Shown here: positions 1 to 15,953 of the stretch, piece after piece
How the letters are laid out: every line of letters starts with the position of its first letter
Numbering within the stretch: the stretch's first letter is position 1
Source: Acidimicrobiia bacterium
GTDB taxonomy: Bacteria > Acidobacteriota > Terriglobia > Bryobacterales > Bryobacteraceae
DNA: 64,000 nt
Reading direction: 5' to 3'
Assembly: GCA_016871315.1 (NCBI GenBank)
Contig: VFZE01000009.1
Coordinates: forward strand, 62,001-126,000
The notes under the pieces: generated by a model
Told to the model about the DNA's origin: nothing
Seen by the model: only the letters and a program-made list of their open reading frames with translations
The model's database searches: none
Made by a program: the position numbers and the translations under genes

Positions 1-1
1 C

Positions 2-505: not shown

Positions 506-523
506 TCCAGGCTGATCATTGAC

Positions 524-552
524 TTGACATTGAAGAGCGGACGCGACAGAAT
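524..552 (+). promoter_or_regulatory. Putative sigma70 promoter of the first Oar-like receptor
   Basis: TTGACA (524-529), a 17-bp spacer, then CAGAAT (547-552, 4 of 6 matches to TATAAT). It lies in the gap between the ASPIC/UnbV gene and the receptor and gives a leader of about 40 nt before the GTG at 601. Comparable boxes precede the other two Oar-like receptors (24222-24249 and 58358-58386). Confidence 0.5.
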
Positions 553-600
553 CGCTTCAAACCACTTTGTGTGGGAAATGTCATCCAGTGGGGGTGTCTT

Positions 601-3600
601 GTGAAGAGTTCCATGACTCGGACCGGTCTTGTGATGCTGGCATCGCTGCTCGCGGCGCCAGCCAACGCGCAGGTGCTTTATGGCGTGTTGGTCGGCAACG
701 TGACCGACGCCCAGCAGGGCGCAGTGGTGGGAGCGGCGGTTTCGGCGAGAAACAACGCCACCAACTACGCGGCGGAAGTGAAGACGAATGAGCGGGGAGC
801 GTATGAGATCCGCAATCTGCCGCCGGGCGCCTATGACGTGAAGATCGTAGCTTCCGGCTTCGCCACGTTTGAAGCGAAGGAAATCAACATCCAGGCGAAC
901 AACATCGCGCGCGTGGATGCGCCGCTGCGCGTCGGCGCCGTGACGGAAACGATCACGGTGGGGGCGGAGGTGGCACGGCTGCAGACCGATAAGAGCGACA
1001 TTCACACGGACATCTCCGGCAAGGAGTTGACCAACATTCCGATCGGCGGATACCGGAACTTCCAGTCGGTGATCGACCTGATTCCGGGCTCGACGCCGAG
1101 CCTGTTCCAAAACGCCTCCACCGACACACCGGCGCGGGCGCTGACGACGAACATGAACGGCACGGCGCGCAACTCCAACAACACGCGCATCGACGGCGCG
1201 GCGAGCATTTTCACCTGGCTGCCGCACCACGCCTACTACATCCCGCCGTTGGAATCGATCGAAGTGGTGAATGTTTCGACGAACAACTTTGACGCGGAGC
1301 AGGGCATGTCGGGCGGGGCGGCGGTATCCGTGATTACCAAGTCCGGCACCAACGACTTGCACGGCGTCGCTTTCCTGTTCCATCAGAACCACAAGTGGGG
1401 CGCCAAACAGGTCTTCTTCAACCCGAACACGCCAGCTGGGCCCGGGATCCCGCAGCGCATCGACAACCAGTTCGGCGGAACGCTGAGTGGCCCGATCAAG
1501 AAGGACAAGCTGTTCGTGTTTTCCAGCTGGGAGCGAACGACGACGGCCGAGCGCGGTAACGGGCTGATGAGCGTGCCCACGGCCCAGGTGCGCTCGGGGA
1601 ACTTCGCCGGGCTTACCAGCGTGTTTGATCCTGCCACGGGGAACCCCAATGGCACGGGGCGCACCCCGTTTCCCAATAACCAGGTTCCGCAGGCGCGCTG
1701 GAACGCGGCTGCCATAGCCCTGCAGAACATGCTGCCGCTGCCGAACACCGGAACCGGACAGCAGAACAACTACTTCGCCTCCGTGCCGTATTACTTCAAG
1801 AGGGACATGCTGGACGTGAAGGTGAACTGGACACCGAATGGAAAGCTGAACATCTTCGGGAAGTACAGCCTGATGTTTGCTCCGGTCACCTCCGACGCGC
1901 CGCTGGGAGAGGCGCTAGGAGGGTACCCGGGCGGCGCGGCGGGCGCAGCCGGGATTGGAACCGGCAACAACACGACCCACGTGTTCGGCGGCGGCATCAG
2001 CTACGTCCTCTCGCCGACGTTGTTGTTTGACGCGGCCTACGGGGGCACGCTGATGCACCATGACACACAGGGCCCGGACTACGGGAAGAACATCGGTCTG
2101 GATGTGCTGAGGATCCCGGGCACCAACGGGCCTGACATCCGGCAGAGCGGATTTCCAATCTTCAACATCAGCGGCTACGCGCAGTTCGGGAACACGAACA
2201 ACTGGAGCCCGGTGGTACGCGATGACCGCGGCTTTACCTATGCCGGAAACTTGAGCTGGACGCGTGGCGCGCACAATCTGCGGTTCGGATTCGATTTTGT
2301 GCACCATCAGATGAACCACTGGCAGCCGGAAATCGGCGGGTGGAGCCCGCGCGGGCGGTTCAACTTCGTGAACGGGCTTACCGGCCTCAGCGGCGGCGCG
2401 GCGCCGAACAACTTCAACGCCTATGCGTCGTTCCTGCTCGGATTGCCGGGCAGCATGGGCAAGGCCTACCAGTTCTACGATCCGATGCGGACGCGGGAAT
2501 TCCAGCAGGGCTACTATATCCGGGACAACTGGCAAGCGACGAGGAAACTGAGTTTCAACTTCGGCATGCGATTCGAGCACTTCCCGATCATGCATCGCGG
2601 GGAGTTCGGGATAGAGCGCTGGGATCCGCTGACGAACAAGGTGCTGATCGGCGGGCGTGGGAACAATCCGCGGACGGCAGGCACTGATGCGGTGCCGGTG
2701 ATGTTCGGGCCGCGCGCCGGGCTTGCCTACCGGATGAACGAGAAGACGGTGATACGAGCCGGTTTCGGAATCACGAATGATCCGTACCCGGTGAGCCGGC
2801 CACTGCGCAGCCCGTTTCCGGCGGTGCTCACCGATGAATATAACCAGACGAACTCATGGGTTTCGCCGCAATTCGGCGGGCGTGATCTGACGCTGACGAC
2901 GGGGATACCGACGCCGCGGTTTCCCGACCTTTCCTCCGGCGTCGTCGATATTCCGAACACCTTCGCCACTGTGACGTTGCAGCCGGGCAAGTACCGCCGC
3001 GGCTACATCGAATCGTTCAACTTCACGTTGGAGCGGGACTTGGGGGACGGGTTCGTGCTGCGCACCAGCTATGTCGGCACACGGTCCATCCGTCAGGCTC
3101 TCACCAATTTCGAAGCCAACGCGGGTCTTGTGCCAGGCGCCGGCGCCAACGGCAGACCCTTCTTCGCGCAGTACGGAGTTAATGCCAACCGCGCTTTCCA
3201 CATACCGATGGTCCACCAGCGTTATGACGCCTGGCAGAACAACCTCACGCGGCGTTTCACGCGCGGCTTATTTCTGACCTCCTCCTTCACCTGGTCCAAG
3301 ACGATCGGGATGAACGCGGGTAATTCCGACAATGGGCTGAGCTTCTACGTTCCGAACCAGTTCTCGAAGAACAAATCCGTGGCCAGTTTTGACCGGACCC
3401 TGACATGGGTGACGGCGGCGACCTGGGATCTGCCGTTCGGCAAAGGGAAGAGGTTCGCCTCCGATGGTCTGGCCTCGGCAGTCTTCGGAGGCTGGACGCT
3501 GACGCCGAACATTGCCATCTACTCCGGCACGCCCTTCACGGTGGGCAGCGATGCCGCTTCGCTCAACGCGCCGCAGAATACGCAGGTTGCCGATCAGATC

Positions 3601-3948
3601 ACCGGCGACGTGCGCAAGCTGCGCGGCGTCGGGCTGGGCGCGCCTTTCTATGATCCCAGCAGCTTCTTGGCGGTTCGCGAAGTGCGATTCGGCAACATGG
3701 GTCTGAACTCGCTGCGCGGGCCCAGGCTGTTCGGACTGAACGGAGGGATCTACCGGGCCTTCCGGCTTTCGGAAAGAGTCGGGCTGCAATTCCGCGGCGA
3801 GGCGCTCAACCTCACCAACACCCCGGTGCTCAACAATCCGAACGCGACGGTGACCAGCCCGGCCAACTTCATGCAGATCACGAGCGTGATCACGACGCAC
3901 CCGGCGCCGGCGCGCACGATGCGGTTCGGCTTGCGGCTGGCGTACTAG
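601..3948 (+). CDS. Oar-like TonB-dependent receptor with N-terminal carboxypeptidase-regulatory-like domain
   Basis: About 1115 residues, the size of Acidobacterial Oar-like outer-membrane proteins. A signal peptide (MKSSMTRTGLVMLASLLAAP-ANAQ) is followed at ~25-110 by a carboxypeptidase-regulatory-like beta-sandwich (VTDAQQGAVVGAAV..., YEIRNLPPGAYDVKI). A plug-like segment and a long barrel follow, with many NxxRxGF/FNFGMRFEHF-type strands, ending RFGLRLAY with a terminal aromatic residue. GTG 601 is chosen because a GGGGG stretch (590-594) stands upstream and the signal peptide starts there; the frame is open to GTG 571 and an ATG at 613 is an alternative. Family knowledge: TonB-powered uptake of large substrates, unknown here. 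It is preceded by its own promoter and by an ASPIC/UnbV gene. Confidence 0.9.
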   Translation: MKSSMTRTGLVMLASLLAAPANAQVLYGVLVGNVTDAQQGAVVGAAVSARNNATNYAAEVKTNERGAYEIRNLPPGAYDVKIVASGFATFEAKEINIQANNIARVDAPLRVGAVTETITVGAEVARLQTDKSDIHTDISGKELTNIPIGGYRNFQSVIDLIPGSTPSLFQNASTDTPARALTTNMNGTARNSNNTRIDGAASIFTWLPHHAYYIPPLESIEVVNVSTNNFDAEQGMSGGAAVSVITKSGTNDLHGVAFLFHQNHKWGAKQVFFNPNTPAGPGIPQRIDNQFGGTLSGPIKKDKLFVFSSWERTTTAERGNGLMSVPTAQVRSGNFAGLTSVFDPATGNPNGTGRTPFPNNQVPQARWNAAAIALQNMLPLPNTGTGQQNNYFASVPYYFKRDMLDVKVNWTPNGKLNIFGKYSLMFAPVTSDAPLGEALGGYPGGAAGAAGIGTGNNTTHVFGGGISYVLSPTLLFDAAYGGTLMHHDTQGPDYGKNIGLDVLRIPGTNGPDIRQSGFPIFNISGYAQFGNTNNWSPVVRDDRGFTYAGNLSWTRGAHNLRFGFDFVHHQMNHWQPEIGGWSPRGRFNFVNGLTGLSGGAAPNNFNAYASFLLGLPGSMGKAYQFYDPMRTREFQQGYYIRDNWQATRKLSFNFGMRFEHFPIMHRGEFGIERWDPLTNKVLIGGRGNNPRTAGTDAVPVMFGPRAGLAYRMNEKTVIRAGFGITNDPYPVSRPLRSPFPAVLTDEYNQTNSWVSPQFGGRDLTLTTGIPTPRFPDLSSGVVDIPNTFATVTLQPGKYRRGYIESFNFTLERDLGDGFVLRTSYVGTRSIRQALTNFEANAGLVPGAGANGRPFFAQYGVNANRAFHIPMVHQRYDAWQNNLTRRFTRGLFLTSSFTWSKTIGMNAGNSDNGLSFYVPNQFSKNKSVASFDRTLTWVTAATWDLPFGKGKRFASDGLASAVFGGWTLTPNIAIYSGTPFTVGSDAASLNAPQNTQVADQITGDVRKLRGVGLGAPFYDPSSFLAVREVRFGNMGLNSLRGPRLFGLNGGIYRAFRLSERVGLQFRGEALNLTNTPVLNNPNATVTSPANFMQITSVITTHPAPARTMRFGLRLAY

Positions 3949-3967
3949 TGGAGTGTCGCGACGGAGG

Positions 3968-4068
3968 CGTTACCGACAAAACCGCTCCCTCACGGTCGCG
4001 GCTCAGCTACAGGTCCTCAGCTTTGTAGGAGGTTGCCGAGCCGCGCGCGTCAGCAAGCGGTGGTAACG
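3968..4068. repeat. REP-like imperfect inverted repeat / large hairpin
   Basis: Two 24-nt arms, 3981-4004 (starts ACCGCTCCC, ends CGCGGCTC) and 4038-4061 (starts GAGCCGCG, ends AGCGGT), are imperfect reverse complements. An outer CGTTACC (3968-3974) pairs exactly with GGTAACG (4062-4068). The whole ~100-nt unit sits 20 bp after the receptor stop and lacks a T-run, so it looks more like a repetitive extragenic hairpin than an intrinsic terminator, though it could slow or end transcription. Copy number elsewhere in the genome cannot be seen. Confidence 0.55.
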
Positions 4069-4128
4069 TTTTGGTTAAGACAGGCCACCAAGTTCGACGG
4101 CTGAGAACGAGGATGCCTCTTGGTGGGT

Positions 4129-4147
4129 TGGTTGCGGGGGGTGGATT
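4129..4147. repeat. Distal copy of the tRNA-fMet 3' end (att-like direct repeat)
   Basis: TGGTTGCGGGGGGTGGATT at 4129-4147 is identical over 19 bp to 4691-4709, the 3' end (CCA included) of the tRNA-fMet gene, in the same orientation and 562 bp apart. Similarity stops at both sides, and no further tRNA sequence adjoins this copy. A tRNA 3'-end duplication of this size is what site-specific integration leaves. Confidence 0.6.
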
Positions 4148-4283
4148 GGAAGTCATTCATAACGCCCTGATCGGCTGGCTCGTGCGCCGTTGGTCACTTC
4201 CTAAGAACGGCAGGAGATCGCACCGAACCTAAGGCATCCGAGCCAGCCGCCAGGTGGATTTGCGGCGAAGGAGACCGCAGGCA

Positions 4284-4460
4284 TCATCGCGTAATCTTCT
4301 TCAGAATGTGTTTCGCAAGGGACTCGTTGATCTCCCGATGCCTTGGCACGGGTTGAGAAGCGCCTGTCCTTGGGTTTCGATACCAGTCGTGGTTCCCACC
4401 GTGGCGGACGAGTTCGCAGCCAGCTTCTTCCAGCTTGCGGATCAGGTCCGTTCGCTTCAT
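4284..4460 (-). CDS. hicA: HicA family mRNA interferase toxin
   Basis: 58 residues, the normal size for HicA and intact. The protein runs MKRTDLIRKLEEAGCELVRH, then GGNHDWYRNP, and ends SLAKHILKKITR. The GGNH motif places the catalytic histidine at residue 24, as in characterised HicA toxins with the double-stranded-RNA-binding-like fold. The ATG at 4458-4460 overlaps the hicB stop in an ATGA arrangement, so translation is probably coupled. Known role of the family: ribosome-dependent or free mRNA cleavage until bound by HicB. The gene lies inside a block flanked by copies of the tRNA-fMet 3' end. Confidence 0.9.
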   Translation of the reverse strand: MKRTDLIRKLEEAGCELVRHGGNHDWYRNPRTGASQPVPRHREINESLAKHILKKITR

Positions 4461-4648
4461 CCAACGGCCAATTCAGCTACTCGGCGAATACCGGGGATCT
4501 CTCCGCTGGTCAGGTCCTTGTAGAGATCCCGCAGATTCTCCCGGAGTTCCTCAAGCGTTTCACCCTGCGTCAGGTAGTCCGGGAACTCCTCAAAGTAGCC
4601 GAGCCACATGCCCTGGTCTTGCCAATGGACATACCGAGCCGTACTCAT
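4457..4648 (-). CDS. hicB: HicB family antitoxin (short form)
   Basis: 63 residues, starting MSTARYVHWQDQGMWLGYFE and continuing EFPDYLTQGETLEELRENLR, the partial RNase H-like HicB fold that neutralises HicA. There is no C-terminal DNA-binding domain, so this is the short HicB class and autoregulation is uncertain. The frame stays open upstream into the tRNA, but ATG 4648 matches the family start. It sits 42 bp downstream of tRNA-fMet on the same strand, with hicB before hicA. A TACAAT box ends 6 nt before the ATG, suggesting a leaderless transcript. Confidence 0.88.
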   Translation of the reverse strand: MSTARYVHWQDQGMWLGYFEEFPDYLTQGETLEELRENLRDLYKDLTSGEIPGIRRVAELAVG

Positions 4649-4654
4649 GGCTTC

Positions 4655-4660
4655 ATTGTA
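4655..4660 (-). promoter_or_regulatory. -10-like box directly upstream of hicB
   Basis: TACAAT read on the minus strand, separated from the hicB ATG by 6 nt (GAAGCC). No good -35 is visible. Read-through from the tRNA-fMet promoter is an alternative source of the hicBA transcript. Confidence 0.35.
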
Positions 4661-4690
4661 GCGTTGTGGGGGCGTTGGAGGGGAGAGTCC

Positions 4691-4767
<77 letters not shown>

Positions 4768-4844
4768 GAACCATCCTAGCGCGGCCCCTGGGGTGCGGTC
4801 AATAGCGCTGGCCGGAAACGGAAAATGCTAGACTGCTCCGGAGC

Positions 4845-5489
4845 ATGCCGCCATCTCCGGAACCTTTAAAAACGCCGCAGGTACAAGGCTATCTGCACCG
4901 TCCCGTAGGGGAGCCCGTTGCGGCAATCGTGCTGACTCACGGCGCCGGCTCCCATTGCGAGGCGCCGCTGCTGCGGGCGCTTGGCCGGGAGTTGGCCGGC
5001 GCCGGGCTGCTGGTGCTTCGCATGGATCTTCCGTACCGCCGCCGGAGGCCGATGGGACCGCCGCGCCCGCCGGAGGCGGCCGGCGACCGCCAGGGTCTGC
5101 GCGACGCTATCGATGCCGTGCGCAAGCTCACCTCCGCAAAGCTCTGCCTGGGCGGCCATTCCTATGGCGGGCGGCAGGCCAGCATGCTGGCCGCCGAAGA
5201 TCCAACACTCGCCGCCGCGCTGCTGTTGCTCTCCTATCCTTTGCATCCGCCGCGCAAACCGGAACAACTTCGCACGGCGCACTTTCCCCACCTGCGAACC
5301 CCCGTATGCTTCGTGCACGGAACACGCGACCCGTTCGGCTCGATCGGAGAAATGGAGCAGGCCGTTTCGCAGCTGGCAGCGCCGCACCGCATCATCGCCA
5401 TCGACGGCGCCGGCCACGACCTCCGGGCCGGCCGCGACCTGAGCTTCTGCCCTGCTTTCCTTACCTTTGGCGGGGTGGTTGCCGGCTAA
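4845..5489 (+). CDS. Alpha/beta hydrolase of the KANL3/Tex30 (dienelactone hydrolase-like) type
   Basis: 214 residues. Strand-turn LTHGAGS (30-36) forms the oxyanion region, GGHSYGG gives nucleophile Ser106, HGTRDPF gives Asp162 and GAGHDL gives His191, so the catalytic triad is complete and correctly ordered. No signal peptide, so probably cytosolic. The family contains small serine hydrolases and esterases whose substrates are mostly unknown. The gene follows the tRNA-fMet gene on the opposite strand and stands alone, convergent with the DUF1326 gene. The fold and triad are secure; the substrate is unknown. Confidence 0.85.
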   Translation: MPPSPEPLKTPQVQGYLHRPVGEPVAAIVLTHGAGSHCEAPLLRALGRELAGAGLLVLRMDLPYRRRRPMGPPRPPEAAGDRQGLRDAIDAVRKLTSAKLCLGGHSYGGRQASMLAAEDPTLAAALLLLSYPLHPPRKPEQLRTAHFPHLRTPVCFVHGTRDPFGSIGEMEQAVSQLAAPHRIIAIDGAGHDLRAGRDLSFCPAFLTFGGVVAG

Positions 5490-5532
5490 ACAGGGCTGAA
5501 ACTCCATTCCGCCGCGGCCGGCTCAAAGCTTG

Positions 5533-6144
5533 TTAGTTTACGTCCTTCGATGAGATGTCGTAAGTGATCATGAAGCCGTTGGTGCCCCGGAACTCGAACT
5601 TCTTTGCGCCCTTCCGGTAGGCTTCCACCTCGTTCGGCATCAACACGAACCCCTCGTTACGCGGCACAGCGAAGTACTTCAGGTTGTGGATCACCACCGG
5701 CTTGGCGCTCATGCCGGAGAACTGGTTGAGCACGATTTCGCCGCTTTTACCGGCGTCCAGCCGGGCCACGGCCTTCGTGCCCTGGTGGCTCCAGTCGATC
5801 TTACCGTCGTTGGACACGGTAAAGGATCCCCACTTCACCGGATACACCTTGCCTAGAATCTGCGCGATGGCATCGCGCTGTTGCTTGCCGGCGCTGGGCT
5901 CAAAGGTCAGCTCAGCCCAGTCGGTGGTGCCGTCGCCGAAATTGTCGCCCAGGTCACCCGCGATCCAGAACTTCATACCATCCAGGTTCACGGCGCCGTG
6001 GCTGCCCTTGTTGACCTTGTAGGCCATGTTGAATTTGCAGTAGTGGCTGCTCGCGGCGCCGTGATGATGGGCCGCGGGTTTGGTGTTGAAATAGCACTGG
6101 CAGAACATCGGGCAGCTGCACGCCTCGATGATCGTCGCGTTCAT
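5533..6144 (-). CDS. DUF1326 domain-containing protein
   Basis: 203 residues. It begins with the family hallmark, a cysteine cluster CSCPMFCQC at residues 9-17, followed by an HHHG stretch (26-29). DUF1326 proteins normally start with a similar E-x-C-x-C-x4-C-x-C motif and may bind metal; their function is unknown. The C-terminal part has the expected beta-rich W/F pattern (FRGTNGFMITYD). ATG 6144 is the only ATG in the frame near the Cys motif, though the frame is open for ~15 codons upstream, so an upstream start is possible. Convergent with the hydrolase gene. Confidence 0.8.
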   Translation of the reverse strand: MNATIIEACSCPMFCQCYFNTKPAAHHHGAASSHYCKFNMAYKVNKGSHGAVNLDGMKFWIAGDLGDNFGDGTTDWAELTFEPSAGKQQRDAIAQILGKVYPVKWGSFTVSNDGKIDWSHQGTKAVARLDAGKSGEIVLNQFSGMSAKPVVIHNLKYFAVPRNEGFVLMPNEVEAYRKGAKKFEFRGTNGFMITYDISSKDVN

Positions 6145-6190
6145 TGCCCAGCCGGCACCCCACTGCCCTGCTCCCTCTCCGTGTGCCTCT

Positions 6191-6196
6191 ATTATA
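6191..6196 (-). promoter_or_regulatory. Consensus -10 box (TATAAT) upstream of the DUF1326 gene
   Basis: TATAAT on the minus strand, 46 nt upstream of the ATG at 6144 and 26 nt after the kinase stop. No convincing -35 is found at 16-18 bp. A purine stretch (GGAGAGGGAG) follows in the leader. Confidence 0.4.
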
Positions 6197-6221
6197 ACGA
6201 AGCGGGTGAAGAGTACCGCTT

Positions 6222-8945
6222 TCAGCGACCGATGGCCAGCCAGAGGCGCTGGAGAAGACTGTTACCTGTGTGAAAGTCCTTGAGCATCCAAAGGTCGCCG
6301 GTGGTGGTGAGCGTGCTGGTGGCCAGGCGTTTGCCATCGGGGGAGGAGCTGAGGCGCAGGGTCGGCGAAACTCTCGACCCCACCCGCGTGTTGGGAATGG
6401 CAATCTCGATCGCAACTTCGCCGCGCTTGCGGCCCGTTGCGGCGTCGAAACTCAATAGCCGCTGCGAGCCTTCCATATCCAACAAGGCATAAAGCAGGCT
6501 GCCGTCGCGAGACCAGCCGGTGGCCTCGAACCTTCTTTCGTCCAACAATCGCGTCTGTTTGCCATCCTCGGAAATCAGAGTCAAGCCGCCGGCCAGCGGC
6601 GCCGCGATCCAGCCGCCCTTCGGCGACCACGCCGGCACCAGTTGGTGCTTGGCTTCCATCAGCATCACGGGAGGCTCCAATCCGCCGACACGCACCTTGA
6701 CCAATCCGCTCTTCTCGGCGGTGTGATGAAACACCACCCATTCCCCGTTTGGAGACCAGCTCGGGATCCACTGCGAGCCTTTCGTGATGCGCAACGGCAC
6801 CGGCGCTCCGGCGGTCACCGAAGCAACCCAGATTCTCGGCAGCGCGTTCTCCCCCAGTCCCACGCCGTGCCTCACGAACGCCACCCGCTCCCCGTCGGGC
6901 GAGAAAACAGGCCCCGACAGGAACTTGTCCTCGCCGTCGGAGAAATTCTCCGAAGTTGCCAGCGGGCGGTCCCAACCCCGTTGCATCGATTGCGCCCAGA
7001 TTTCGATGCGTCCGCTGCGGTTGGTGACGTAGGCGTACATGTCCCCTTTCGGCGACCAGTCCGGAGCATACTCGCTGCGCCGCGTGGCGAGCAGACGCGT
7101 GAGATTGCCAGTGGCGGTGTCGATTTCCACCAAGTCGTTATCCCATTCCATCGCCGTGTAGCCGAGGCGGGATCCGTCCGGGGACACGCTCGGCATCCCC
7201 TCCACCCCGATGCCTGCCACCAGCGGCCACACACGGTCCCTTCTGATATCGGCCATGTGGAGGTTGGTGTTGAAGACTTCCCCCTTCGGCGGCGCGGCCA
7301 GCACAATGTGGCGCCCATCCGGCATCCAGTCAAAGCCGCGGATAGGGAATTTCCGCGCAATGGATGCCAGCGCCTTCCTCGGCTTGCCGGCCGGGACAGG
7401 CAGCTCCCAGAACTCCATGCCACGGTCGGCCTGGCTTACCCAGGCCATGATTCCGAGCCGGCTGCCGTCGGGAGAAAAGGCCAGGCGCGGGCGGTTGGAA
7501 AAAGCGACGTCGGCGAGCGGCGCGTCCGGGTAGGGCGCCAGGGCGGCTCCCGGCGGCTCACTCAGCAGGATCTGGTTGCCGCCGCTCAGGCTGCGCAAGA
7601 TGGCAAGCCTGCCGCCGTCACGGGAGACGGCATACTCACGAACCTGGTCGTGAACCAGCACCGGGTCCCCTCCCGCCACGCCGACGCTCCACAAGCCGCC
7701 GCGCATCAAGAAATAGACGCGCGTTCCGTCGCCGGACCAGCTCGGGCTTGTGCAAGGTTCTGAGCAGCGGGTCAGCTGGACCGGGGTCGGCGAAGCCGGC
7801 ACCTTGAGGAAAATCTGCGGCCGCGAGGATACGGTCCCCTGGTACACGATGCTGGCGCCGTCCGGCGACCACGCCACCGCATCTTCGAATTCATCGGAGG
7901 TAGCCAGCGGCGTCAATTGATACTTGCTGATATCGGCTGTCGGCTCCTCCAGAAACAGCGCCGCTCCCAGCGTCACCACCAACATCGCCGACGTGGTCGC
8001 CAGCGCCGTCCGCCAGGAGAAGCGCCGCCTCTTGCCCGTCATCGCGGGCGTCATCCACATGCCGGACATTTCCAGCGCACGTTCCCTTTGATGGCGCAGA
8101 TCCTGGAACAGGTCCCGGGTGTCGGCGTAGCGCTCGGCCGGCTCCTTCGACAGGCATCTCTCGATTGTCCATTGCAGCGGCTGCGGGATGTCCACTTCCA
8201 GTGGCGCCGGGTTGTCCTTCAACGTCGCCGCCAGCAGATCCATCACCGAGGAGCCCTGGAACGGCCTCCGTCCCGACGCCATCTCGTACAAGACCAATCC
8301 GAAGGAAAAGATATCGGAACGGTGGTCCACTGGCAGGCCCTTGATCTGCTCCGGGCTCATGTAGCCCGCCGTGCCCACCACCTTGCCGTCCACGGTCAGG
8401 TTCATGGTCATCGTGGAGCCTTCCGGATCGGCGGCCGGCGCCTCCTGCTTGGCGAGGCCGAAATCGGCGATCTTCGGCCGATCGTCGCGGGTGAGCAGAA
8501 TGTTCTCGGGCTTGAGATCGCGGTGTGTGATGCCGATGCCGTGGGCGGCGGTGAGCCCGTCGGCGATCTGCACCGCCAGATCGTAGAGCTTTTTCACCGG
8601 TACAGGACCGCGTTCCATGAGGCGGCGGAGTGAGTGGCCGTCGACAAGCTCCGTGACGATGTAGAGATTGGGTGGCTCCAGATTGACGTCGAATACCGCG
8701 ACGATGTTCGGATGATTCAGCGCGCCGGCCGACCGCGCCTCGGTGGCGAATCGCTGCAGCCGCCGCGGATTATCCATCATCTCTTGCGGCAGCAGCTTCA
8801 AGGCCACCTCGCGGCCCAGCCGCCTGTCGCGGGCGCGATACACCTTGCCCATTCCGCCCGCGCCGAGCAACGAAATCAACTCATAAGGACCCAGGCTATC
8901 GCCCGGCTGCGGTGTCTGCTCCGGCTTGTTGTCGATTTCGTCCAT
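6222..8945 (-). CDS. Ser/Thr protein kinase with C-terminal TolB/PD40-like beta-propeller
   Basis: 907 residues. Hanks-type kinase at ~21-290: glycine loop [10 protein letters not shown], Lys50 (VALK), catalytic HRDLKPEN (Asp143), DFGLAK (161-166), activation loop [10 protein letters not shown]. One membrane segment at ~312-332 ([19 protein letters not shown]) divides it from an extracytoplasmic region of repeated WSPDG/FSPDGSR blades, i.e. a PD40/TolB-like propeller. All catalytic residues are present, so an active membrane receptor-like kinase is likely; the ligand is unknown. Its start lies inside the end of the GT41 gene (50-bp overlap), so the two are probably co-transcribed with the upstream peptide gene. 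Confidence 0.92.
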
Positions 8946-10338
8946 CCACTGGTTTCCGGGCCGCGCACCAGTTGATCCACATCCTGCGGTATGCAGCCTC
9001 TACTTGAGCGGCCGTCCGCCCTCCGTCCATCATCCTCTGCGCGAACCGGTCACGCAAGCCCCCCCGAACCGCCGCTCTCCAGTCCTGTTCCCGCGCTATT
9101 CTGACCGCCATTTCCACATACTCTTCCCGGCTGCCGGCGATGCACTCCTCCAGTCCCGTTTGCGTGAGAATTCCCACACCCAGCCGCGATGCATGCGTCC
9201 TGCCAGACAGCGTGATTACCGGCACGCCCATCCACAACGCCTCGCAGGTTGCCGTCGCGCCGTTATAGGGAAACGGGTCGAGGGCGACATCCACCTCACG
9301 GTACAGTTCCCAATGCTGCTTCCGCTTACGACGCCCCACTACCCGTAGTCTCTCCTCTCCGATTCCGTGTGCGCCGAACTGCGCCGCCAGTTCCGCAGCC
9401 CATCTCTGCTCCAGCTCCCTTTCCTTTTCCGCATCCTGCTGCGCCACGCCGTAGTGGAGCAGCAACCGTGCGCCCTCGACACGGTGCAGGATCTGGCTCC
9501 ATGCCGCGATCACTCCGCCGTTCAGTTTCGCCTGACGGTGAAACGCCCCGAACGTGATGGGCCCCCCCGCCGGCTGCCCCACCTCCGGATAGTCTTCCAC
9601 CGGCCTGTAGCAGAACTGGGAACCGCCGATCCGTTCCAGTTTTTCGGTGAATAAATGACCGGTCAGGCCCACCGGATCGGTGGCATGGTCGGTAAGCCGG
9701 TAATCGATGGCCGTAAGTCCCGTCGTGCAAGGATAGCCAAGATAAGTTACCTGCACCGGCGCAGGCTTGCGCGCGAAGATCTCCAGGCGGTTTGCCCGTG
9801 TGTGGCCCGACAAATCCACCAGGATGTCGATGCCGTCGGCCTGCATCTGCCGCAGGGCATCCTCGTCGGGCTGGTTGCGGATCCTTCTCCACACGCAGGC
9901 CTTGCCGCGCAGCCGTTCGGTGAAGGAATCGGGCTTGGCGACATTGTCGTAACAGAAGATCTGGAACTGTTCCCGGTCATGTCCATCCAGCAGCGGCTCC
10001 AGAAAGTAGCACACCGGATGGCGGCAGAAATCGCCCGATACGTAGCCCACCTTCAGGCGCCGCTCCGGATCCGCTTCATTGGTGTGATGGCGACAGCAGC
10101 CCCGCCAGTTGGCTTCCATCCGCGCACCCCACCAGCGGTGCTCCCCGGCGACCGCTTCCGGACTGGAACAGTCGTCATACTGCAGCGCCAGCAGCAAATT
10201 GCTGCGGGCTACCCGGAAGTCCTGCTTCCGTGCGAGACTCTGCCGGTAGCTGGCGATTGACTCTTGAACCCGGCCCTGGCTGAGATGGTTGTTGCCCTCT
10301 TGGAAGTACCGCCGGTGCGGCTCCAGTTCTCCCTCCAT
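8896..10338 (-). CDS. GT41 O-GlcNAc transferase-like (SPINDLY/OGT family) glycosyltransferase
   Basis: 480 residues with a single TPR (~10-43) instead of the usual long TPR array. The catalytic region is complete: VGYVSGDFCRHP (His107, equivalent to the OGT active-site His region), VDLSGHTRANR (~174-183), PVQVTYLGYPCTTG, FHRQAKL (Lys271, nucleotide-sugar phosphate contact in the family), and the signature DPFPYNGATATCEALWMGVPV (354-373). Members transfer GlcNAc, fucose or other sugars to Ser/Thr of proteins. It starts 29 bp after the stop of a Ser/Thr-rich repeat peptide on the same strand and overlaps the downstream kinase gene by 50 bp. The short TPR part suggests a narrow substrate range, and the peptide is the obvious candidate (inference). 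Confidence 0.9.
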   Translation of the reverse strand: MEGELEPHRRYFQEGNNHLSQGRVQESIASYRQSLARKQDFRVARSNLLLALQYDDCSSPEAVAGEHRWWGARMEANWRGCCRHHTNEADPERRLKVGYVSGDFCRHPVCYFLEPLLDGHDREQFQIFCYDNVAKPDSFTERLRGKACVWRRIRNQPDEDALRQMQADGIDILVDLSGHTRANRLEIFARKPAPVQVTYLGYPCTTGLTAIDYRLTDHATDPVGLTGHLFTEKLERIGGSQFCYRPVEDYPEVGQPAGGPITFGAFHRQAKLNGGVIAAWSQILHRVEGARLLLHYGVAQQDAEKERELEQRWAAELAAQFGAHGIGEERLRVVGRRKRKQHWELYREVDVALDPFPYNGATATCEALWMGVPVITLSGRTHASRLGVGILTQTGLEECIAGSREEYVEMAVRIAREQDWRAAVRGGLRDRFAQRMMDGGRTAAQVEAAYRRMWINWCAARKPVDGRNRQQAGADTAAGR

Positions 10339-10367
10339 GGCCGGGCTCAGCTTTTCACCGCGGGCCG

Positions 10368-10514
10368 CTACTCTTCACCGCTGGTGTGTGAAGTGCTCTC
10401 TTCTTCGAACCCGCCGGTGGTGGAGCTGGATTCCGAGTCGGAATCATCGAATCCTCCCGTGGTGCTGTTGGATTCCGGCGCGAGGTTGTACACGCGGTCT
10501 TCTCTGTCAATCAT
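10368..10514 (-). CDS. Short Ser/Thr/acidic repeat peptide, putative modified precursor
   Basis: 48 residues with an excellent Shine-Dalgarno (AGAGGAG, 8 nt before ATG 10514). The first 13 residues (MIDREDRVYNLAP) look like a short leader. Two near-identical units follow, ESNSTTGGFDD (14-24) and ESSSTTGGFEE (28-38), repeating every 14 residues, then an acidic Ser/Thr tail ending TSHTSGEE. There is no Cys, Trp, Lys or signal peptide. The GT41 Ser/Thr glycosyltransferase starts 29 bp downstream. The pattern TTxxx[DE][DE] also recalls omega-ester (graspetide) cores, but no ATP-grasp ligase is visible nearby. I do not recognise the family; coding status rests on the RBS, the repeat and the operon position. 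Confidence 0.7.
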   Translation of the reverse strand: MIDREDRVYNLAPESNSTTGGFDDSDSESSSTTGGFEEESTSHTSGEE

Positions 10515-10566
10515 GATACGGACTCCTCTCAAACGCAGCTTGGCTGCTCTACGCGAAATGCTAGCC

Positions 10567-10597
10567 ATTATACCGGAACCGCAATCGCTGCGATAAT
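10567..10597. promoter_or_regulatory. Divergent promoter region with central palindrome
   Basis: Minus strand: TATAAT at 10567-10572, ~50 nt upstream of the peptide ATG. Plus strand: GATAAT at 10592-10597, ending 7 nt before the glycosyltransferase ATG. Between them lies the 11-nt odd palindrome ATCGC-T-GCGAT (10584-10594), which overlaps the plus -10 and would suit a repressor site for both transcripts. The -35 elements are poor. Confidence 0.45.
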
Positions 10598-10604
10598 ACT
10601 TCGG

Positions 10605-11408
10605 ATGGAGTCCACGGGGATACTGGTGCTGGGCCATTCCCGGCCGGCGCACTTGGCCGCCGTGCTGGAAAGTCTGGCGCGGCAGGAAGCGCTGGGCTTG
10701 GTGTGCGTTTGGCTGGACGGCGCCCAGGGCAAGAGCATCTGGCAGACGAAGGTGCGGCAGTGCCGGGAAGTGGCCGCTTGCTATCCGGGTTTGCTGGTCA
10801 CGATCATGAACGGGCACCTCGGCATAGAAAAGCTGATGCTCGATGCCCTTGGTTACATGGCCACGCGCTACCACCGCATCATCGTACTGGAGGACGACTG
10901 CTTCCCTACGCGCACCGCGGTCACCACCTTCCTTCATGCCCTGGACGGGATCCGCGATGAGGAGCAGTTCTTCTCCGTCTATGGACACCCTTTTCTTGTG
11001 TCCGGGGAGAACGGCCGCTTCCCGCGCTTTCAGGGATGGGGCTGGGCCACCTGGAGCCACAAGCTGGAGCCCATCCTCGCCGAAGCCAAACTGCGCTATG
11101 CGATGGCCGAGCCGGATTACCGGGCCTGGGTGGAGCAGGCTCTCACGCCGCAAGTGCATGAAAGGCTTGCCGCCACACCGGGCCGCTATCCACCGGCAAG
11201 GCTGATCTACTCCTGGGACTCCTGCTTCGCTCTGCTCACGGCCATGCAAGGGCTGTGCCACCGACGCACCTCGCCGCGCGTCATCTACAACTGCGGCCTT
11301 GGCCCCGATTCCAGCCACTTTCCCGATGCGGAACGCTGGCGTCGCCCGCCCTACAACATGATCCGGCTCGAGGAGGTTTGGAACTACTTCGACAATGAGC
11401 AACTCTGA
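10605..11408 (+). CDS. GT2-like (GT-A fold) glycosyltransferase
   Basis: 267 residues. It starts MESTGILVLGHSRPAHLAAV, the Rossmann-like entry of GT-A enzymes. VLEDDC at 94-99 is the acidic metal/nucleotide-sugar motif, and FQGWGWATW (~143-151) matches the WGWATW motif of bacterial GT2-like proteins annotated as nucleotide-diphospho-sugar transferases. No signal or membrane segment, so cytosolic. It overlaps the sulfotransferase start by 14 bp and is divergent from the peptide-GT41-kinase unit. The sugar and acceptor are unknown; extension of a sugar placed on the 48-residue peptide is one possibility (inference). A leaderless transcript is likely: the GATAAT box ends 7 nt before the ATG. Confidence 0.82.
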   Translation: MESTGILVLGHSRPAHLAAVLESLARQEALGLVCVWLDGAQGKSIWQTKVRQCREVAACYPGLLVTIMNGHLGIEKLMLDALGYMATRYHRIIVLEDDCFPTRTAVTTFLHALDGIRDEEQFFSVYGHPFLVSGENGRFPRFQGWGWATWSHKLEPILAEAKLRYAMAEPDYRAWVEQALTPQVHERLAATPGRYPPARLIYSWDSCFALLTAMQGLCHRRTSPRVIYNCGLGPDSSHFPDAERWRRPPYNMIRLEEVWNYFDNEQL

Positions 11409-12309
11409 GCCCGGCTCCCATCTGATCTTCCTCATTTCGCAGCCTCGCTCCGGCTCCACGCTGCTGCAAAAGATGCTCGGCGCACATCCGTCCATTCACA
11501 CCGTTTCCGAGCCTTGGCTCGCGCTTTACCCCGCTTATGCACTGCGCGACAACGGCACCACCGCGGAGTTCAGCGGCAGGCTCTACCGCGGCGCCGTGCG
11601 CGAGTTCCTGCGCACGTTGCCGGAGGGGGAACGAGTGTGGCTGGAGGCCAACCGGCTGATGCTGGAGCATCTCTACGGCAAGGCGCTTGCGGCCTCCGGC
11701 AAGAACCTGTTTCTCGACAAGACCCCGCGCTACTACCACATCATCGGGGAGCTTCAGGCGCTGTTTCCGGCGGCGCGTTTCCTGCTGCTGTTCCGCAACC
11801 CGTTGTCGGTGTTTGCCTCCATCCTGGCCGGATACAAGGCGGAGGAACCGGGAATGCTGGCGGGCAGCCGGCATGACCTGCTGTCTGCGCCGGGACTACT
11901 GTTGGAGGGTGTTACGAGGCTCGGTTCAGCCGCGGTTCGAGTGCAGTATGAGCATATGGTGGAGCAGCCGGAACGCGTGATCCGCGGCATCTGTGAATTC
12001 CTCGGCATCGAGTTCCTGCCGGGGATGATCGACTACGGGGAATCTGCTGAGGGGCGGTGGCTGTATGGGGATCAAGGCACCGTCTACCGGCACGGCCGCC
12101 CGATTACGGAGCGGCAGGCGCGGTGGCGCGGCACGCTGGGCCGTTCGGCTGCGCGCTTGAGCTGGGGCGGCTCGTATCTGGATGCTTTGGGAGGAGAGAC
12201 CATCGCCAGGCTCGGCTACCGGATGGAGGAGCTTCGACAGGAACTGGAGACGGTGACTCCCGCCGAACCTGGGCCGGCAATCGGCTGGGAGCAGCTTATC
12301 CTCGGTTGA
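11395..12309 (+). CDS. Sulfotransferase (Sulfotransf_3-like)
   Basis: 304 residues. The 5'-phosphosulfate-binding loop is QPRSGSTLLQ (16-25) and the 3'-phosphate region is around RNPLSVFAS (~132-140), both canonical for PAPS-dependent sulfotransferases. DKTPRYY (~100) is the usual substrate-side motif of this class. Its ATG lies 14 bp inside the glycosyltransferase gene, so the two are translationally coupled and probably act on the same product, for example a sugar. No PAPS-synthesis genes are in the window. The 3' end overlaps the convergent Tat-barrel gene by 14 bp. Confidence 0.88.
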   Translation: MSNSEPGSHLIFLISQPRSGSTLLQKMLGAHPSIHTVSEPWLALYPAYALRDNGTTAEFSGRLYRGAVREFLRTLPEGERVWLEANRLMLEHLYGKALAASGKNLFLDKTPRYYHIIGELQALFPAARFLLLFRNPLSVFASILAGYKAEEPGMLAGSRHDLLSAPGLLLEGVTRLGSAAVRVQYEHMVEQPERVIRGICEFLGIEFLPGMIDYGESAEGRWLYGDQGTVYRHGRPITERQARWRGTLGRSAARLSWGGSYLDALGGETIARLGYRMEELRQELETVTPAEPGPAIGWEQLILG

Positions 12310-13249
12310 GCAGCCGGTTGACACGCTGGGCGTTGTCGCGCACCTGGTCAAAGTAGCGAGGATACATACCGATGATCAGTGCATCGGTGGGCTTGATGTT
12401 GGAGTAGGCGGACTGGAAAGCCTTATCGATCGCCGCGGGGGAATCGGTGGCGCGGCCGGCGGCCAGCACCTTGTAGCAGAGGCAAGGCCGCTTGGTCTGG
12501 CGGATCACCTTGTACATTTTCGCCGGGTCCTCCGGCACGTAAACTTCGCCGAGCGGGCGGGTGCCCAGCAGCTGTTGCCACTCTTCGTTGGAGCGGGTGA
12601 GGTAGTAAAGCGAGGTCATGTAGAAGTCGATGTCCCAGCCTTCGCTTTCCACTTGTTCGAGCAGTGACGGGTCGTGACAGCTCAGGCCGACCAGGACGCC
12701 GGAGTCGCGGACGCTCTTCAGAAAGTCGCGCACCTGGCCGAGCTGGCCCTGACGGCGTTTACGCTCGGCCGACCCGCCATGATGGACGATGCCGACGGGT
12801 TTGTGTTTCACGACGTCCTTCACGAGCGAGTGATCGTTTTCCATCTCGGCGTGGCTGAGCAGAATCCAGTTCATCTTGCCGCCGCGGGCGCGGTGGGCGG
12901 CGAGGTCGGACATGGTACGCGCGGTGTGAGAGAACTGCCAGGTGTTGATGCCGCAACGCTCGCCATGCTCCAGCACCTGGCAGATGCGCTCCGAGGTTGC
13001 CCATTCCGTCATGTGCTGGCTGAAGAGCCGGTTGAAGTGCGAATAGCCGTAGAAAGGATTGCCGCCCACGATCAGGCGCGAAACCTGGTGCTGGCCGAGC
13101 TTGATCTTAGGCAGCGTGATCGGCGGTCCTTCGCTCAGCACGGCCGGAGTGGAATCGGCCGCGGCGGCGGCGGCTTCGGCCTCCGGCGAACAAGGCAGCG
13201 CGGCGCCTGCGGCCGCGGCCTGGAGGAAGCGGCGGCGTGGCTGCTTCAT
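12296..13249 (-). CDS. Tat-exported aldo/keto reductase-like TIM-barrel protein
   Basis: 317 residues. The N-terminus MKQPRRRFLQAAAAGAALPC is a twin-arginine signal. The mature part reads like a TIM barrel of the aldo/keto reductase type: VSRLIVGGNPFYG, GINTWQFSH, then GIVHHGG (~150), VGLSCHD and MTSLYYLTR. The usual AKR Tyr-Lys pair cannot be placed with certainty, so it may be a non-reductase relative. The gene starts 15 bp downstream of the GH88 stop on the same strand, suggesting a common transcript. Probably periplasmic carbohydrate metabolism; this is inference. Confidence 0.6.
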   Translation of the reverse strand: MKQPRRRFLQAAAAGAALPCSPEAEAAAAAADSTPAVLSEGPPITLPKIKLGQHQVSRLIVGGNPFYGYSHFNRLFSQHMTEWATSERICQVLEHGERCGINTWQFSHTARTMSDLAAHRARGGKMNWILLSHAEMENDHSLVKDVVKHKPVGIVHHGGSAERKRRQGQLGQVRDFLKSVRDSGVLVGLSCHDPSLLEQVESEGWDIDFYMTSLYYLTRSNEEWQQLLGTRPLGEVYVPEDPAKMYKVIRQTKRPCLCYKVLAAGRATDSPAAIDKAFQSAYSNIKPTDALIIGMYPRYFDQVRDNAQRVNRLLNRG

Positions 13250-13264
13250 CGTTCACCTCCCGGG

Positions 13265-14392
13265 TTAAAGTTTGCGCAGGGCGTGCTCCAACGCTTCCAC
13301 GAAGAAGTAATCTCCCCACATCACGGATTCGTTCACGCCGAGTCCTTTGTGGATATGATACACCCCGCCCTTGAGAATGCCTTCCCACTTTTCCGGCTTC
13401 CTGCCAAGGTGCTTTTCCGACAAGGAGCGCAGAATGCGGATGGCCGTGGACCAATAGAAGTGGCCCTTCACCGGATCGGCCAGCAGGCGGCAGAGGCGGA
13501 GCATGCCGGCGGCGGCAATAGCGCCGGCGGAGGTGTCCACTTGCTTGCGGGAATCTGGCGGGGCGTTGAAGTCCCATGGCGGCACTCCGTCGCTGGGCGT
13601 GTGGGTGATGTAGTAGTCGGCGCAGGCTTCGGCGGTTTGCAGGAAATGGGGATCGCGGCTGTACTCGTAGCAGGTGGAGAAGCCGTAGAGCGACCAGGCG
13701 AGGCCGCGGGACCAGCAGGAGTCGGCGCGGTAGCCCTGCTGGGTGGACTGGTGCAGAAACTCGCCGGTGCCGATGTCGAAGATGCCTTCGTGCGAGGTGG
13801 AGCCGTCGCCGCGGACCAGCACGCGCCGGGTGGTGAGCGCATGGCGCAGCGCGACTTCGCGCAGATTGCGGTCGCCGGTTTCGCGCGCGGCGTAGAAGAT
13901 GATGCCGACGTTCATCATGATGTCGATGAACAGCGAATTGTCGGCGACGAAGGAGCGGAGGTAATGGCCCTTGTCCTTGTAGCGCATGGCGAGGGTGCGG
14001 CCGGCCTGGATGAGGACGTCCTTGAATGCCTGTTCGCCGGTGAGCTGGTGCCAGCGGTAGTACGTGCTGAGGAAGATGAAGCCGAGGTCGTGCACGTCGC
14101 GGTCGAGCTTGCGCGGCTCCAGCGGCTTGGTGTAGCGGATGGCCTGCTCCCGCCACCAGTTCGGGTCGCGCTCGCGGTCGGCCTCAAAACGCCGGAAGAC
14201 CCACATCATGCCGGGGAGGAAGCCGTCGCACCAGTGCGTCCACTTGGGCCCTTCGTGCTTCCACTTGCCGTCCTTGGTGTACATCGGATAGTAATCCGGG
14301 TGCTTCTCGATCAACCGCTTCACCTGCTTCTGGGCAAACAGCATCGCGCCGGTGAGCAGTTCCCGGTCCGATTCCAGTTCAAAATGAATCAC
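13265..14392 (-). CDS. Glycoside hydrolase family 88 (unsaturated glucuronyl hydrolase-like)
   Basis: 375 residues, usual GH88 size. The motif RDVHDLGF places the general acid at Asp102, and LFIDIMMN gives the second conserved Asp (157), matching the spacing of Bacillus unsaturated glucuronyl hydrolase. [12 protein letters not shown] and [13 protein letters not shown] are further family blocks of the (alpha/alpha)6 barrel. These enzymes remove unsaturated uronic acid from lyase products of glycosaminoglycans, xanthan, gellan or rhamnogalacturonan. No signal peptide is visible. It lies between a secreted protein of unknown function and the Tat-barrel gene, with ~15-bp gaps, so it is part of a minus-strand operon. 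Confidence 0.88.
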
Positions 14393-14407
14393 TGTTTCTT
14401 CCCCGCG

Positions 14408-15631
14408 CTATTTGGATTGTGTCCGCCAGAGCATGCGGAAACCCTTCCCCAGCTCCAGGCGGTTACCTCTTAAGGATATCGTGCCTTGGTCCATGTCTTC
14501 AGCAGGCGGCTCCATGACCACAACTCTGGCATTGGGCAGGATGGACGGTCCGGCATCTTCCAGCCTGGCGTGCAGTTCGCCGTAGGCTCCCGGAAAGGTG
14601 ATTTCGTCGAAGATGAGCCCGAAGGTGATGATCTCGGTCCGGAAGAAGGTTTTCTGGATCCGCGTGACGCGGCCTTTGACCACCGCGCCCTTGGGGACGA
14701 CGATTTCCCCCTGACGCTTCACGTTGGAGGCTACGGTGGCCGTCAGCGGGTCGCCGATGGCGGAGGAGCCGAACTTCACCGGCGTTTCCAGACGCAGGTC
14801 GAGCGACAGGCCTTCGGGCAGTTCCAGCTTGCGCGGAATCACCGGCGGCGGCGCGTCGGTTACTTCCGGGGGAGGATCGGCGAAACTGATCACCGATTCG
14901 GTGGCGTACTGGCGGCAGTTGTTGAACTGGATCTGGTTGCGGCTTTCGCCGCCGAGCATGTCGGCCACCGTGAGCAGGGAGGACAGGGGCAGCAGGAAGT
15001 CGCCCGATCCAATGGGGAGGCGCAGGTAGCGCATCAGGCTGGAGGTACGGCTGATGGGCACGTGCGGGGGGATCTCGTCGGTGATCACATCCAGTTCCAC
15101 CAGGTCGAGCGTTCTTGCGTCCACCTGGAACGTGCCGTGATAGGCGACGATGGCTTCCGCATCACCGCTGCGGATGCGGTACCCGCTGAGCATCTGCGGA
15201 ACGTCGTAGCTGTACTGGAACAGCTTGCGGCCGTTCTCCTCGACGATGCCTTCATAAGAGAACCGGGGTGCGTTGGAGAGAAAGACACTGCGGGCGTGGA
15301 TGGCGAAGTTGCCGTTGCCGAAGGTGCCGTTGCCCACCAGATCGCGCATCTCCTTGTCCTCGAATCTGCCTGAGCCGGGCCAGGAGAAGAGTTCCTTGCC
15401 TTCCACCAAGGCGACCTCCAGGCGGAGCGTGTCCTGCAGCTCAAAGCGGCGGCTGCGGGGCAGGCGGCGGGAGCGCTCTATGGTCTGGGTGCAGGTATAG
15501 TTGGGCAGCCCCTGGAGGTTGGCGCCCATGTGGACCTTGATCCGCGCCAGGCGGAGCAGGTCGGCGTCGATCTTGGGCTCGGGCGCCTCCTGAGCCGTCA
15601 GCGTGAGCGCGGCTAGGAGCAACATCCACAT
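14408..15631 (-). CDS. Secreted protein of unknown function
   Basis: 407 residues with a short signal peptide (MWMLLLAALTLTAQ). The middle is beta-rich with a single YTCTQTIERS segment (~45-55). The C-terminal part (~275-400) has a pattern seen in export-apparatus or TrbI-like beta domains (SLDLRLETPVKFGSSAIGDP, IVVPKGAVVKGRV). Similar proteins are frequent and uncharacterised in Acidobacteriota as far as I recall. It heads the minus-strand unit leading to GH88 and the Tat-barrel gene. A TATAAT box ends 8 nt before the ATG, so the mRNA is probably leaderless. No function is assigned. Confidence 0.7.
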   Translation of the reverse strand: MWMLLLAALTLTAQEAPEPKIDADLLRLARIKVHMGANLQGLPNYTCTQTIERSRRLPRSRRFELQDTLRLEVALVEGKELFSWPGSGRFEDKEMRDLVGNGTFGNGNFAIHARSVFLSNAPRFSYEGIVEENGRKLFQYSYDVPQMLSGYRIRSGDAEAIVAYHGTFQVDARTLDLVELDVITDEIPPHVPISRTSSLMRYLRLPIGSGDFLLPLSSLLTVADMLGGESRNQIQFNNCRQYATESVISFADPPPEVTDAPPPVIPRKLELPEGLSLDLRLETPVKFGSSAIGDPLTATVASNVKRQGEIVVPKGAVVKGRVTRIQKTFFRTEIITFGLIFDEITFPGAYGELHARLEDAGPSILPNARVVVMEPPAEDMDQGTISLRGNRLELGKGFRMLWRTQSK

Positions 15632-15639
15632 TAGTAGCC

Positions 15640-15645
15640 ATTATA
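15640..15645 (-). promoter_or_regulatory. Consensus -10 box, leaderless start of the 15631 gene
   Basis: TATAAT on the minus strand followed by 8 nt (GGCTACTA) and the ATG. Its context CCGATATAATGGCTA matches 14 of 15 bases of CCGGTATAATGGCTA at the peptide-gene promoter (10562-10576). Confidence 0.5.
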
Positions 15646-15683
15646 TCGGGCGGTCTTGGCGGTTCCTTCAGGGGTTGTTTTGC

Positions 15684-15689
15684 TACCAT
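15684..15689 (+). promoter_or_regulatory. -10-like box ahead of the CDGSH gene
   Basis: TACCAT, ending 7 nt before the ATG at 15697; it would give a leaderless mRNA. No clear -35. Confidence 0.3.
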
Positions 15690-15696
15690 CGGGAAT

Positions 15697-15927
15697 ATGC
15701 CTACCAAAGTCACTGTGCTGAACAATGGGCCCTTGCGTATCGAGGGGGATTTTTCGATTTGCGACGCCGCGGGGGGTGAGTTTGGGCTCGCCGGGCGGAC
15801 TGTGCTAAGCCTGTGCCGCTGCGGCCATTCGGCGAACAAGCCGTTCTGCGACGGCTCACATGGGCGGCAGGGATTTCAATCGGTGGAGACGGCGCGTGAG
15901 TTGCCGCCACCGAAGCCGAAGGTCTAG
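15697..15927 (+). CDS. CDGSH iron-sulfur domain protein (mitoNEET type)
   Basis: 76 residues, a complete single-domain protein. The motif LCRCGHSANKPFCDGSH carries the three Cys and one His ligands (C-x-C-x9-C-x3-H) of the 3Cys-1His [2Fe-2S] cluster. The N-terminal half (VLNNGPLRIEGDFSICDAAG) is the usual small beta part. The cluster in this family is redox-active and labile; roles in electron or cluster transfer are general knowledge and not specific here. It stands between divergent and convergent neighbours as a single gene. Confidence 0.92.
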   Translation: MPTKVTVLNNGPLRIEGDFSICDAAGGEFGLAGRTVLSLCRCGHSANKPFCDGSHGRQGFQSVETARELPPPKPKV

Positions 15928-15953
15928 AGCGCAGCGCTTTCCGGGCCGCTAAC

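Follow-up and report, generated by a model that had tools for sequence, protein, structure and literature searches.

A short acidic Ser/Thr repeat peptide encoded beside a GT41 glycosyltransferase and a Ser/Thr kinase in Bryobacteraceae: a candidate small glycoprotein system

In glycocin systems a ribosomally made peptide is accompanied by the gene of a dedicated glycosyltransferase; the enzymes are SunS-type glycosyltransferases of family GT2, and the cores are Cys-containing bacteriocins. A similar combination, known here from gene order, of a 48-residue repeat peptide with a glycosyltransferase of family 41 (GT41) was found in a 64,000-nucleotide stretch of a Bryobacteraceae genome (GCA_016871315.1, contig VFZE01000009.1, positions 62,001 to 126,000), the whole of which is called the window in the following. 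It falls outside the glycocins in having a GT41 enzyme, an acidic Ser/Thr peptide without Cys and no recognised exporter. GT41 enzymes are known from flagellin glycosylation islands, where the enzyme is likewise encoded near its likely protein acceptor, as described in PMC4875605. The locus in the window differs from these systems, since the proposed acceptor is a repeat peptide of 48–62 residues, the tetratricopeptide repeat (TPR) part of the GT41 is minimal, and a kinase, a sulfotransferase and a GT-A-like gene join it. The O-GlcNAc transferase (OGT) of Thermobaculum (5djs) and the SPINDLY O-fucosyltransferase share the catalytic family of the window enzyme; for the former, PMC4683255 reports that none of the peptides tried gave activity in vitro. 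Graspetides, whose loci encode their ATP-grasp enzyme according to PMC8939145, resemble the window peptide in a repeated T...[DE][DE] motif. Little is known of what bacterial OGT-like enzymes modify in nature. A pairing of GT41, kinase and small peptide was not described among the literature matches listed, most subscription journals being outside coverage; a preliminary description of the locus, made from the letters alone, knew of no described family that pairs such a peptide with GT41.

The core of the locus consists of the following features:

10368..10514, (-): acidic Ser/Thr/Gly repeat peptide of 48 amino acids, the proposed GT41 acceptor, MIDREDRVYNLAPESNSTTGGFDDSDSESSSTTGGFEEESTSHTSGEE
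10523..10529, (-): Shine-Dalgarno sequence AGAGGAG of the peptide gene, 8 nt ahead of the ATG
10428..10469, (-): repeat unit 1 of the peptide, NSTTGGFDDSDSES
10386..10427, (-): repeat unit 2 of the peptide, SSTTGGFEEESTSH
8896..10338, (-): GT41 (OGT/SPINDLY-type) glycosyltransferase with minimal TPR part, 480 amino acids (PF13844, E 1.4e-49)
6222..8945, (-): Ser/Thr protein kinase with PD40 (WD40-like) repeats (PF00069, 1.8e-50; PF07676, 1.9e-23)

The observation was confirmed, and the evidence supports a real peptide gene. Its open reading frame (ORF), the Shine-Dalgarno sequence, two STTGGF[DE][DE] units spaced by exactly 14 residues and a distance of 29 bp from its stop codon to the GT41 start codon were all present as first described. 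The two units differ in 7 of 24 nucleotides, five of these at third positions; STTGGF is kept in both, with AGC and TCC as the two Ser codons. When seven changes were placed at random (100,000 trials), STTGGF survived in 0.1%, and STTGGF together with both acidic residues in 0.002%. The best internal 8-mer repeat of the peptide (7/8) was equalled in none of 300 shuffles. Pfam and NCBIfam searches with the peptide gave no match.

A homologous peptide of 62 residues is encoded in a sister genome of the same genus, G031 (genomes, contigs and loci carry G, C and L numbers; G000 is the window's own genome and C9 its contig), at L113:6382-6570, before a contig end and at the orthologous place, upstream of the GT-A-like gene. 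It consists of MDPRTLLSYSASSTGYQEEE, followed by three 14-residue units around ESGTGCGTGHEEE, compared with two units of the same period in the window; a homologue and a variation in repeat number, by which the preliminary description had proposed to check the gene, were thus both seen. The 14-nt Shine-Dalgarno stretch (window 10521-10534) is identical in G031, with GTTTGAGAGGAGTC ahead of the peptide. An origin of the peptide as a chance ORF, for which the high GC content of the stretch, with its many long open frames, could be adduced, appears very improbable in view of the synonymous drift between the repeats, the conserved Shine-Dalgarno stretch and the homologue at the same place.

Two further genes on the opposite strand belong to the conserved set:

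10605..11408, (+): divergent GT-A-like protein (low-confidence model; ortholog 60% identical in G031)
11395..12309, (+): sulfotransferase (PF13469, 9.7e-28)

The pairing of peptide and GT41 was correctly noted at first, and the account was incomplete: the kinase gene, which overlaps the end of the GT41 gene by 50 bp, the GT-A-like gene and the sulfotransferase gene had been missed. In G031 the orthologs of the GT-A-like protein and of the sulfotransferase (59% identical) lie side by side. Its GT41 ortholog (55% identical) is followed by the kinase ortholog (60% identity over the part present), inside which the contig ends. The gene set of GT-A-like protein, sulfotransferase, GT41 and kinase is conserved in the genus; the four enzymes have stayed 55–60% identical while the peptide diverged. 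The GT41/kinase contig starts 45 bp ahead of the first ATG of the GT41 ORF. Peptide and GT41 are likely to be adjacent in G031 also.

The GT41 was complete, with a minimal TPR part, as had been claimed: its catalytic domain scored 169.2 bits with the Glyco_transf_41 model PF13844 (cut-off 25), and TPR-like matches were confined to residues 11-37 (TPR_2) and 15-55 (TPR_Slam), both under the Pfam cut-offs. The closest solved chains (phmmer) were 5djs, 2.5e-79, and SPINDLY 7y4i, 1.8e-78. N-glycosyltransferase chains of the PDB gave E values of 1.6e-7 to 2.5e-6, the OGT/SPINDLY types reaching about 1e-79, and the HMW1C-type model NF049992 gave 37.2 bits with a cut-off of 1000, which places the enzyme outside that type.

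For comparison across the family (237 genomes), GT41 loci were fetched, ORFs of at least 120 amino acids were called by script, and BLAST served to mark the kinases, flagellins and GT41s among them; this yielded 91 GT41 ORFs of at least 300 amino acids in 89 stretches, 14 of the 91 at a stretch edge. A Ser/Thr kinase was the immediate same-strand neighbour of 16 of the 91, versus 1 of 318 other genes taken as control, from which kinase-linked stretches were left out, and lay within two genes of 19, in both gene orders. The kinase-linked loci are not independent, because most of them sit in one part of the tree; the window's genome encodes 34 kinases with E ≤ 1e-20. Flagellin was encoded in the stretches of 27 GT41 ORFs, none of which was kinase-linked. 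GT41 follows flagellin directly in 14 loci, and flagellin is plausibly an acceptor that is also encoded beside its GT41. Gaps between kinase and GT41 measured 177-705 bp (15 loci) versus 53-201 bp between flagellin and GT41 (14 loci; p 6e-6). A small ORF was present within the former at 14 of 15 loci (L174 being ambiguous); the ORFs listed in the latter had 20-72 amino acids and no Shine-Dalgarno-like sequence. The locus in the window has no adjacent flagellin gene, none being found by blastp among the called ORFs of window positions 1-16000. The second GT41 detected in the same genome (L056, G000:C39:38000-50000) has a long TPR part and flagellin genes in the stretch.

The kinase-linked set was taken as 20 loci, the 19 mentioned and L170, where the kinase is three genes away. 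A small ORF (48-154 amino acids) lay ahead of GT41 in 17 of these, the exceptions being L051 (contig end), L165 (none clear) and L174 (ambiguous overlap); the one of L175 ends 446 bp ahead of GT41, and that of L170 was chosen without Shine-Dalgarno evidence. In the window and L171 the peptide gene comes first, followed by GT41 and then the kinase; the other loci have kinase, small ORF, GT41, with an opposite-strand gene in between in L170. A small ORF ahead of GT41 is thus not peculiar to the locus in the window, and the recurrent partner is the kinase. Internal repeats were tested in 21 small ORFs, namely the 17, the G031 peptide, L102 and L104 (upstream gene cut) and L174; seven exceeded composition shuffles (p ≤ 0.003, 300 shuffles):

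window peptide
G031 peptide
L136 (TPHPFKPD)
L138 (TPHHGF)
L140 (THHGA)
L146 (DTGHER)
L173 (KHTG)

Thr occurs in the units of all seven and His in those of six. A general enrichment of Ser/Thr near His was considered and rejected, since 19 of the 21 failed the shuffle test.

In a tree of 57 rows the GT41s of the window and of L051 pair (100/99). In a quick tree of 90 rows both join a set of 29, with 21 kinase-linked and no flagellin-linked members (Shimodaira-Hasegawa-like approximate likelihood ratio test 95, midpoint root; L102, L104, L139 and L170 labelled kinase-linked by hand). The N-terminal part of the window GT41 is the shortest of the 90 rows, excluding rows cut by a contig end (L143, L097, L162 and L163 are shorter and begin at contig ends); L170, L171 and L165, all kinase-linked, come next. 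The earlier suggestion that the short TPR part implies a dedicated small substrate is borne out in part, by this length and by the small ORFs ahead of kinase-linked GT41s.

The simplest account of these data would be that the peptide serves the GT41 as a dedicated O-glycosylation acceptor, possibly with extension and sulfation and with the kinase as a partner, and this is on the whole considered probable. GT41 would move a sugar, the nature of which is inferred like the final function of the product, onto Ser/Thr residues in the STTGG-type units; the sugar bound there would probably be lengthened by the GT-A-like enzyme and sulfated by the sulfotransferase; and the kinase could regulate the module or phosphorylate the same acidic Ser/Thr-rich peptide, since regulation or shared sites are suggested by the kinase link. 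The conserved gene set and the recurrent arrangement of small protein, GT41 and kinase point to an undescribed small glycoprotein system, and the locus would be part of a wider, apparently undescribed group of such cassettes in the family.

Several observations weigh against a dedicated acceptor of this kind. The peptide type is carried by two genomes only, and the exact motif pattern occurred in 1 of 257 genomes of the order, the window's own. In G031 peptide and GT41 are on different contigs, and therefore their adjacency there is only inferred. Neither an exporter nor a protease nor a leader motif could be recognised at this locus, protease and exporter having been looked for by eye in the ORF lists; the arrangement typical of ribosomally synthesized and post-translationally modified peptides (RiPPs), a precursor gene beside that of a candidate modifying enzyme, is present in gene order only. 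The small ORFs elsewhere were picked by hand from mechanical lists, mostly by Shine-Dalgarno sequence and position; 14 of the 21 had no significant internal repeat, and Ser/Thr near His exceeded shuffles in two, the window (p 0.003) and L167 (p 0.03), both uncorrected. The 57-row tree does not resolve the placement of the window GT41, and its grouping with kinase-linked enzymes appears only in the quicker 90-row tree. The GT-A identity of 10605..11408, which had no Pfam or NCBIfam match, depends on a poor AlphaFold model (pLDDT 49) and the label is given with caution; the fold matches, to GT-A and nucleotidyltransferase folds with IspD first and human POMGNT1 second, lend weak support because of the poor model.

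Kinase and GT41 could instead compete for shared Ser/Thr sites on the peptide; the peptide would then be an intracellular signalling scaffold and no natural product. The acidic, Ser-rich peptide, the kinases within two genes of GT41 in either order, and the ECF (extracytoplasmic function) sigma and PAP2-like genes found in 15 and 9 stretches, respectively, would suit such a switch; the kinase target is only putative, and a search for a GH84 O-GlcNAcase gave no match in G000 and G031, which says little, as it was silent in all control genomes. This explanation is rated as rather unlikely, and an equally tentative status is given to its extension to the whole family, according to which GT41 and kinase would share one small, often repeat-bearing multi-site substrate in an O-glycosylation/O-phosphorylation switch, to which this genus would add a second sugar and sulfate. 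Somewhat less probable still appears the case of a genuine peptide which is not the substrate and works with the kinase or the sulfotransferase, while GT41 acts on flagellin or other proteins; the flagellin genes near 27 of the family's GT41s and near the second GT41 of the same genome speak for it, and the 29-bp linkage, the minimal TPR part and the small ORFs that recur ahead of kinase-linked GT41s against it. A graspetide precursor with side-chain links from Thr to Asp/Glu would fit TTxxx[DE][DE], a motif resembling graspetide cores. The G031 repeats, which lack this spacing, argue against it, and no RimK-type ATP-grasp match (PF08443, the one family searched) was obtained on the window contig C9, the matches being on C81 and C49; no ATP-grasp ligase had been visible at first either. 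The reading is therefore very unlikely.

About 20 small-protein / GT41 / kinase loci encode a candidate acceptor next to the enzyme, and therefore acceptor, donor and any interplay with phosphorylation are directly testable in E. coli; GT41 may also join the peptide-tailoring glycosyltransferases.

Further relatives of the peptide were sought as follows. In its own genome the window peptide matched itself only. The sole other match among 200 family genomes searched, in G118 (E 0.07), was rejected as a 44-residue alternative frame inside a 439-residue ORF. Searching with the G031 peptide produced matches (E up to 1) in 156 of 237 genomes. Of the 21 best places other than its own, 19 had loci, in whose fetched flanks neither a GT41 nor a kinase motif was found, and the matches were taken as compositional noise; several of the frames there were recovered imperfectly, with short flanks or internal stops, and therefore this verdict relies on the flank checks. 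A genome contig scan yielded three distant GT41s in other phyla; for two of these, the ORFs lying upstream included no similar peptide. A phylum-level search gave a match in 16 of 396 genomes.

The ECF sigma genes occurred exclusively in kinase-linked stretches, as did the PAP2-like genes except in L139 (short contig); for nine of the kinase-linked stretches longer flanks had been taken in a second fetch, and therefore the absence of these genes elsewhere weighs less. A cassette of kinase, small ORF, GT41 and PAP2-like gene recurs in L136, L138, L140, L145, L166, L167 and L168, and six of these seven stretches also contain an ECF sigma gene. Many small proteins of these cassettes end in a hydrophobic strand-like tail, similar by eye.

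Signs of RiPP biosynthesis near GT41 were seen elsewhere in the family. In L078/L171 (L171 = G199:C768) the GT41 lies near a SagB dehydrogenase (1.8e-44) and an NHLP-type leader peptide (TIGR03793 3.6e-10, under its cut-off; PF02979 over its cut-off). L100/L170 (L170 = G033:C3) encodes a SagD-type YcaO protein (TIGR03604 9.3e-63, just below cut-off; TIGR03882 above). The GT41s of L171 and L170 are short, and each locus also has a Ser/Thr kinase. L060 has a peptide with a Gly-Gly-like leader by eye, all family matches being sub-threshold. L141 (G120:C29:5000-16000) is a possible RiPP cluster with GT41, having a LanC-like gene at a distance of about 0.9 kb from it and, beyond a transposase-like gene, a radical SAM gene at 3.4 kb. 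In the window itself, two small overlapping ORFs at 4284-4717 (-) resemble HicA/HicB toxin-antitoxin genes by eye.

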